A stretch of 64,000 nt of DNA from Bacteroidota bacterium (GTDB taxonomy: Bacteria; Bacteroidota; Ignavibacteria; Kryptoniales; JAKASW01), in the NCBI GenBank assembly GCA_021825585.1, contig JAKAGT010000028.1, positions 1 through 64,000 of the forward strand, written 5' to 3'. A model generated the notes under the pieces. The model did no database searches, had not been told where the DNA came from, and saw nothing but the letters and a program-made list of their open reading frames with translations. Each line of letters begins with the position of its first letter. The stretch's first letter is position 1. Made by a program: the position numbers and the translations under genes. Shown one piece after another: positions 49,216 to 53,200 of this stretch.

Positions 49216-49313
49216 GAGTTTTGAGTTTATCAGTTGCGAGTTTGCAAGTTGGTGAGTTACGAGTTTGGAAGTTCCGAGTTTGCGAGTTTCGAGTTGACGA
49301 GTTTGGAGTTTGA
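49216..49313 (+). repeat. GAGTT-type degenerate tandem array between cheA and cheB
   Basis: About 12 units of GAGTT/CGAGTT separated by 3-6 bases (e.g. GTTACGAGTTTGGAAGTTCC) fill the whole space from the cheA stop to just before cheB. Unlike the arrays around 52721, there is no inverted AACTC half. GGAG at 49305-49308, inside the array, lies 7 bases before the cheB ATG and probably serves as its ribosome binding site. Confidence 0.85.
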
Positions 49314-52539: not shown

Positions 52540-52545
52540 TATAAA

Positions 52546-52702
52546 AGTTTCGAGTTACGAGTTTAAAGTTACGGAGTTTCGAGTTACGAGTTTAAAGTTA
52601 CGGAGTTTCGAGTTACGAGTTGAAACTTCCAAACCCGAAACTTCAAAACTCGAAACTGATAAACTTGCAAACTCGAAACTCATAAACTCGAAACTTAAAA
52701 AC
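52546..52702 (+). repeat. GAGTT array followed by inverted AACTC array (5' flank of four-helix gene)
   Basis: The left part is a 29-bp tandem repeat (AGTTTCGAGTTACGAGTTTA...) present twice perfectly (52546-52574, 52575-52603) and a third time partly (52604-52626). It switches at TTGAAACTTCC into the reverse-complement motif (AAACTCGAAACT units, 52627-52702). The two halves can pair into an extended hairpin. The array starts 6 bp after the kinase stop and ends 18 bp before the four-helix start. The last 46 bp of the left part (52581-52626) recurs exactly at 53116-53161. Confidence 0.9.
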
Positions 52703-52720
52703 TAAAGAAAGGAAAAAACA

Positions 52721-53116
52721 ATGGGAACCATCAAAAGCTTTGAGGAAATTCAGGCGTGGCAGAAAGCTCGCATATTAACAAAAGAGGTTTATGACATCAC
52801 AAAGCTGACGCCCTTTTCTAAGGATTTCGGACTGCGCGATCAAATACGCAGGGCGAGTGTTTCAGTGATGTCAAATATAGCTGAGGGATTTGAACGAGGA
52901 GGTACCAAAGAATTTGTACAGTTCCTTTCCATAGGAAAAGGCTCGGCGGGAGAGGTCAGAAGCCAGCTTTACGTTGCGCTCGATCAGGGCTATATCAACG
53001 ACGGTAAATTCCGCAACTTTGTTGATCTAACGACCGAAGTCAGCTCCATGATTGGAGGTTTCATGAACTACCTTAGAACGTCAAACATTAGAGGAACGAA
53101 GTATAAACAACTTTAG
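52721..53116 (+). CDS. Four-helix-bundle protein (23S rRNA IVP / S23 family)
   Basis: 131 residues with the family pattern: IQAWQKARILTKEVYDITKL, FGLRDQIRRASVSVMSNIAE, GFERGGTKEFVQFLSIGKGS and AGEVRSQLYVALDQGYI. The first described members are encoded inside 23S rRNA intervening sequences; others stand alone, and the Avd protein of diversity-generating retroelements shares the fold. A pentameric, nucleic-acid-binding barrel is known for relatives, so RNA or DNA binding is plausible here. It is in the same direction as its operon neighbours but unrelated to them. Both flanks are formed by the same repeat cassette, and its TAG stop (53114-53116) runs directly into the second copy. No reverse transcriptase or rRNA is nearby. 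Confidence 0.9.
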   Translation: MGTIKSFEEIQAWQKARILTKEVYDITKLTPFSKDFGLRDQIRRASVSVMSNIAEGFERGGTKEFVQFLSIGKGSAGEVRSQLYVALDQGYINDGKFRNFVDLTTEVSSMIGGFMNYLRTSNIRGTKYKQL

Positions 53117-53191
53117 AGTTACGAGTTTAAAGTTACGGAGTTTCGAGTTACGAGTTGAAACTTTCAAACTCGAAACTTACAACTATAAACA
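53116..53191 (+). repeat. GAGTT/AACTC array (3' flank of four-helix gene)
   Basis: 53116-53161 is identical, over 46 bp, to 52581-52626. It then switches at TTGAAACTTTC into AACTCGAAACTT sequence, like the first array but shorter. The array ends 9 bp before the next ATG (53201), with AAAGGAAACC as ribosome binding site. The base at 53116 is shared with the stop codon of the four-helix gene. Confidence 0.9.
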
Positions 53192-53200
53192 AAGGAAACC

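Follow-up and report, generated by a model that had tools for sequence, protein, structure and literature searches.

Within the window analyzed here, a 64,000-nucleotide stretch of a Bacteroidota genome, a small gene for an IVP, or four-helix bundle, protein lies between a histidine kinase gene and a response regulator gene, enclosed on both sides by spacers built of short repeats. The locus raises the question of whether gene and repeats form a single element that entered the operon and, if so, what the repeats do for it.

Anatomy of the window unit

The features of the unit and its surroundings are given in Table 1. An earlier note on this DNA had recognized an IVP-family gene between the repeat spacers, and profile searches bore this out, with the protein scoring 126.9 bits against PF05635 (cut-off 33.8) and 120.2 bits against TIGR02436 (cut-off 24). 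Its closest solved structure was 2gsc (E 1.1e-16), described by its authors, in the title as cited in PMC3936711, as having a quaternary structure made up of five four-helix bundles. The IVP gene is the only sizeable ORF inside the insert, which, as had been noted, encodes no recognizable transposase. No strong promoter or terminator match was found on the + strand of the insert, and the cassette is therefore probably expressed by read-through.

Table 1. Coordinates of the inserted unit, its component arrays, and neighboring features in the window
Feature	Position	Strand	Remarks
Whole inserted unit	52540..53200	+	About 660 bp (661 nt), at kinase/regulator junction; absent at 16 homologous junctions
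Upstream forward word array	52546..52628	+	11 words RGTTNCG/RGTTTAA; 29-bp higher-order repeat x2.8
Upstream inverted word array	52622..52703	-	Same word on minus strand, about 11 words
Spacer and AAAGGAAA ribosome binding site, 5' of IVP start codon	52709..52720	+	Sequence
IVP / four-helix bundle ORF, 131 aa	52721..53116	+	PF05635, TIGR02436
Downstream forward array, 6 words	53116..53163	+	Identical to 52581-52628 over 48 bp
Downstream inverted words, 3-4	53157..53178	-	Same word
Upstream neighbor: hybrid PAS/HisKA histidine kinase, 719 aa	50380..52539	+	Profile match
Downstream neighbor: receiver-only Rcp1-like response regulator, 146 aa	53201..53641	+	Profile match
Solo array, 13 words, forward only, no IVP gene	49216..49310	+	CheA-like/CheB-like junction, same word as cassette

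Both window spacers divide cleanly into 7- or 8-nt words starting RGTT. Repeated 7-mer pairs in the upstream spacer number 85 in direct and 61 in inverted orientation; across 1000 dinucleotide shuffles of it, direct pairs averaged 7.9 and never exceeded 43, and inverted pairs averaged 6.0 and never exceeded 39. Each flank is a hairpin on its own. The identity between the stretches beginning at 52581 and at 53116 was confirmed, although it spans 48 bp rather than the 46 bp first claimed, and the TAG stop codon (53114-53116) does run into the second array, overlapping it by its last G. The solo array of Table 1, missed in the first reading, is located 3.3 kb from the cassette.

Elsewhere in the genus, 16 homologous kinase-regulator pairs (L047, L048, L050-L054, L060-L066, L072, and L073) have the kinase stop and regulator start close together, with no IVP gene and a junction about 20 nt long. 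Not all of these pairs are strict orthologs (regulators 52-65% identical), yet every one of them has the compact junction. Set against these junctions, the window unit is an insertion between the PAS kinase and the Rcp1-like regulator, and the earlier suggestion that array and ORF behave as a unit, and that this unit inserted, was upheld, as was its view that the locus is a good candidate for a little-described element.

Inverted arrays around IVP genes

The source genome carries eight full IVP genes and one fragment; by eye, each gene has its own repeated word on both sides. PF05635 genes were present in 157 of 198 sampled genomes of the phylum, often at 5-15 per genome, and, judged by record title, in about twenty phyla together with one archaeon. 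Orthologous IVP genes had dN/dS values of 0.03-0.28; therefore, the protein is under purifying selection.

Inverted arms were scored by aligning the 200 bp upstream of a gene to the reverse complement of the 200 bp downstream, which gave a median of 31 for 37 IVP genes vs. 16 for mismatched pairs. In a larger sample of 146 IVP genes, 80 of them from public genomes, levels were set by a cross-locus null. Inverted arms exceeded the 95% level in 109 of the 146; at the 99% level, where about 1.5 were expected, 88 genes had inverted word arrays flanking them on either side. Direct-orientation flank similarity rose above level in only 17. When 31 IVP genes were compared with 303 control ORFs of the same regions, the difference was pronounced (Mann-Whitney p about 1e-8), with about 1% of control ORFs above the inverted-arm level reached by most IVPs. 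When ORFs enclosed by inverted periodic arrays were sought without regard to gene identity, most of the hits were IVP genes. None of 15 DGR Avd genes, which have the same fold, possessed inverted arms, and about a quarter of IVP genes lack clear ones.

Across these samples, framing by arrays is the rule for IVP genes and not a local oddity. The earlier note would have regarded the association as accidental had IVP genes elsewhere mostly lacked arrays; they mostly have them. The association is strong but not exclusive, since 51 arrays in the regions scanned lay more than 500 bp from any IVP gene. Two other parts of that account did not hold. The GAGTT/AACTC motif is not common to the family, as each IVP lineage carries its own period-7 word. 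The proposal that the unit inserted by duplicating its own spacer drew on the 48-bp direct identity of the two window flanks; given that direct similarity is exceptional and inverted similarity usual in the family-wide counts above, it is largely refuted as a general mechanism, and we regard it as close to untenable. The direct duplication is special to the window copy, where local array growth can explain it. As for the binding of folded array RNA that the note thought possible, the G.U wobble comparison between arms described below lends no support to selection for RNA pairing.

Words and their relation to the protein

The arms repeat with a period of 7 nt (autocorrelation 0.60). Among 102 units, a period of 7 fitted best in 75 and one of 8 in 22 (97/102 at 7 or 8). 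On the coding strand, upstream arms are C-poor and often read RGTNNYR (for instance AGTTTCG, AGTGCTG, and GGTTCAA). The array extent per arm has a median of 31-33 nt, close to five words; a correspondence between this five-word extent and a five-fold protein is an idea and not a result. The AGTTNCG-word lineage of the window was also found in Proteobacteria (L126) and Acidobacteria (L138) records, at protein identities of 60-62%.

Where two units from across the genomes had proteins at least 55% identical, the arm 5-mer cosine was 0.235 vs. 0.076 for outer flanks, and a partial Mantel correlation of protein with word, with outer flanks controlled, gave r of 0.15-0.17 (0/1000 permutations). A first, uncontrolled Mantel result was partly compositional, given that dinucleotide-shuffled arms and outer flanks were correlated too. 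With composition controlled, the word covaries modestly with the IVP protein.

Arrays without an IVP gene were also informative. The word of the nearby resident unit ranked top among genomes in 13 of 35 testable solo arrays, where 2.6 were expected. In the source genome, AGTT-word arrays occur in the window and at one other place only, an AGTTNCG-word site (G000:C25:24959-24977) near a gene resembling a secreted-protein C-terminus. Arrays of an AATT-rich word (AATTTAGAATTCAAAATTT) recur at operon junctions without an ORF (L085:13359-15826, L264, and L267).

Placement, gain, and exchange of units

Of 92 units with close neighbors, 89 have the IVP gene pointing the same way as the upstream gene and 76 the same way as both neighbors, and only one unit occupied a divergent gap; the background of gene orientations was 246 same-strand, 50 divergent, and 47 convergent. 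Such strict orientation indicates a role for transcription, at least in the persistence of the ORF.

Units were compared at one junction in genomes of a related family, that between a PaaI-like thioesterase gene and a thiolase gene. In close species the genes on either side are 80-90% identical, whereas both the IVP (56-57% identity) and, with it, the word are different. Among units at this junction, pairs with protein identity of at least 0.62 had word scores of 24-46 and those below 0.62 had scores of 13-22, with no overlap. The junction was empty in G117, a member of the same genus, and in G093 and G274, and held word hairpins without an ORF in L273 and L277. Empty sites, ORF-less hairpins, and joint swaps of protein and word lead us to conclude that cassettes were gained, lost, or exchanged at this junction, and the same comparisons define the cassette as the ORF plus its arms. 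No target-site duplication was identified, the spacers of empty and occupied sites being too diverged to read one, and no nuclease was identified for the cassette.

Further recurrent locations were noted. Members of one IVP clade (L233, L243, L349, L350, L352, L355, and L360) repeatedly lie directly upstream of different thiolase genes, reflecting either gene duplication or target preference. Within the window's genus, several junctions around one conserved region (L005, L025, L030, L032, L033, L035, and L040) are occupied by different IVP genes; the region is an ABC transporter by sequence context and apparently an IVP hot spot.

Few IVP genes occur on plasmids (43 of 72,556) or on phages, where three were found, all annotated as DGR accessory genes. 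No cassette was found as recent copies at two sites, and IVPs of the same genome are mostly 20-50% identical. The rarity on plasmids and phages and of recent copies implies that movement is rare, or consists mostly of exchange or horizontal gain. Two candidate cases of recent spread were rejected because the flanking genes were also common to both loci, namely L140/L149 as a transfer between phyla and a pair of Calothrix plasmids as a recent duplication.

A cassette model and its alternatives

We consider it somewhat better than an even prospect that the window unit belongs to a widespread class of single-gene cassettes in which the IVP recognizes its own terminal words and movement is rare. 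Such a cassette would be an IVP ORF enclosed by inverted arrays of a lineage-private 7-8 nt word, placed at a stop-start junction within an operon and pointing the same way as the gene upstream. The IVP, which has a ring of five four-helix bundles as its closest relative of solved structure, would bind the words in DNA, so that the two arms would act as terminal recognition sites defining the cassette. These ends may serve rare movement and cassette exchange, mobility being a process at the level of the element, with strand cutting and joining carried out by a host enzyme or some other enzyme. What sequence comparison shows in favor of this model is the insertion, the period-7 inverted arms, their family specificity, the joint exchange of protein and word at one site, the orientation and the purifying selection on the ORF, together with presence or absence at one site and solo arrays bearing a neighboring cassette's word. 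Set against it, strict orientation is not predicted for a symmetric DNA transposon without selection; recent copies at two sites are lacking, and plasmid and phage copies are rare; a sizeable minority of IVP genes has no clear arms; and the median net charge of IVPs, +2, makes them only mildly basic. More tentatively, and with doubt prevailing, the protein may be a word reader, its five-bundle ring reading about five heptamers (5 x 7 = 35 nt). The inverted arrays would then be the private address of transposase-free junction cassettes across bacteria, and the nuclease-like GxxExxY genes (see below) would follow the same plan with another word class.

Complementary arms within an operon could also act in RNA. 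They would pair in the polycistronic mRNA and be cut by RNase III, with the ORF loop removed and the insertion tolerated, much as in the RNase III-excised intervening sequences (IVSs) of rRNA that share the protein family and the complementary ends (PMC4990558). Strict co-orientation with the operon agrees with this scheme, as does the fold of the window unit (z = -7.9 vs. 20 shuffles), although any inverted array must fold strongly. Selection for pairing, however, predicts an excess of G.U among inter-arm mismatches, and none was seen over A.C, either in IVP units (148 vs. 169, p 0.26) or in GxxExxY units (39 vs. 45), a result that favors recognition of words in DNA over an RNA stem. Moreover, a stem needs complementarity and not a 7-nt period, and the window flanks already fold separately, leaving an RNA-level intervening sequence unlikely in our view. 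Somewhat less probable again is a regulatory module, in which the IVP binds arrays in 5' leaders, of its own mRNA and at neighboring junctions, to control translation or polarity, and is kept by host benefit. Arrays do stand immediately 5' of start codons, a second junction of the window cluster has an array of the same word, solo arrays carry the resident word, and the ORF is under purifying selection; heptamer repeats shortly before start codons have also been proposed as translational control sites in Beggiatoaceae (PMC4679880). A host function sits poorly with units in operons as unrelated as those of thiolase, ABC transporter, and cas genes (and gmk-nadD in PMC5524665), with positions that are not conserved and with unrelated IVPs swapped in at one site, and it gives the inverted downstream arm no role. 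Growth of intergenic repeats by replication slippage, with the IVP gene present by accident, would suit the abundance of solo arrays in some genomes and the whole-word length differences between relatives, but it cannot make matching inverted arrays on either side of an ORF, and such arms are rare around control ORFs and absent around Avd genes; we judge it very improbable.

Comparison with known systems

The closest known system is the IVS of 23S rRNA in Coxiella and Leptospira, which resembles the cassette in its same-family ORF, complementary termini around that ORF, and scattered distribution, and which has been proposed to be mobile or selfish (PMC4990558). The cassette differs in residing in protein operons, in having arms that are arrays of a 7-nt word, and in an ORF under purifying selection, unlike the decaying S23p ORF of Coxiella. 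No rRNA match was found in L001 and 19 other unit loci, nor any rRNA-embedded unit by short motifs or Rfam.

The TAACTGA repeats of Beggiatoaceae, cyanobacteria, and Bacteroidetes are likewise 7-nt intergenic direct repeats, often placed before start codons and varying in 7-nt steps, but they comprise one word per genome and hardly any inverted sets, and a term search of the text describing them returned no link to IVP genes (PMC4679880). In that system a single heptamer is spread over many intergenic regions; in the source genome, arrays of the AGTT word are confined to the window and one other place.

IVP genes have been discussed as relatives of DGR genes (PMC10053308), and Avd (NF033474; bAvd, PF22296) shares a homologous four-helix-bundle fold. 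The window protein nevertheless reached only 22.3 bits against the Avd profile (cut-off 80), the ORFs beside it encode a kinase and a regulator, and Avd genes are flanked by direct repeats in place of inverted arms.

Foldback-type transposons, MITEs, and REPINs resemble the cassette in their short inverted-repeat ends and ORF-less copies. In the cassette, terminal inverted repeats take the form of degenerate word arrays; it differs in lacking a transposase, in a word that varies from unit to unit, and in showing no burst of copies within a genome.

Genes named 23S_rRNA_IVP have been reported in cas loci (PMC3936711; named in PMC10910872), where the passages concerned treat them as having a possible CRISPR-associated function and do not mention flanking arrays. 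These genes may be inserted cassettes, and the arrival of a cassette at an operon junction would account for them more simply. In a type I-D locus on a Pseudanabaena plasmid (L287, 3001-3360), an IVP gene separates cas6 from cas4. The cassette model could explain IVP genes in rRNA, cas loci, and unrelated operons as moving cassettes and not as parts of those systems. The lineage-specific heptamer arrays make the candidate ligand of each IVP readable beside its gene, and the resulting pairs of protein and word are natural material for work on how a ring of helical bundles recognizes sequence. We found no paper in the open-access literature linking IVP genes to flanking heptamer arrays, though one may exist elsewhere.

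Other gene families with inverted flanks

Inverted flanks were also seen at about a third of DUF559 (PF04480) genes (L319-L348 and L091:8419-8951), in the form of CCCTC/GAGGG palindromes that have no short period; they were set aside as a different thing, possibly a further kind of single-gene element. GxxExxY genes (PF13366, PD-(D/E)XK superfamily) also carry inverted arms, with 20 of 32 units scoring above 28 (L096-L125 and L093:16426-16830). Their word class (CACAGAG, CGCAAAG, CACGAAG) has a period of 8-10 nt and variable spacers. GxxExxY and IVP genes tend to co-occur, with 42 genomes having both, 12 neither, and 5 and 2 a single one, in a count that ignores kinship.
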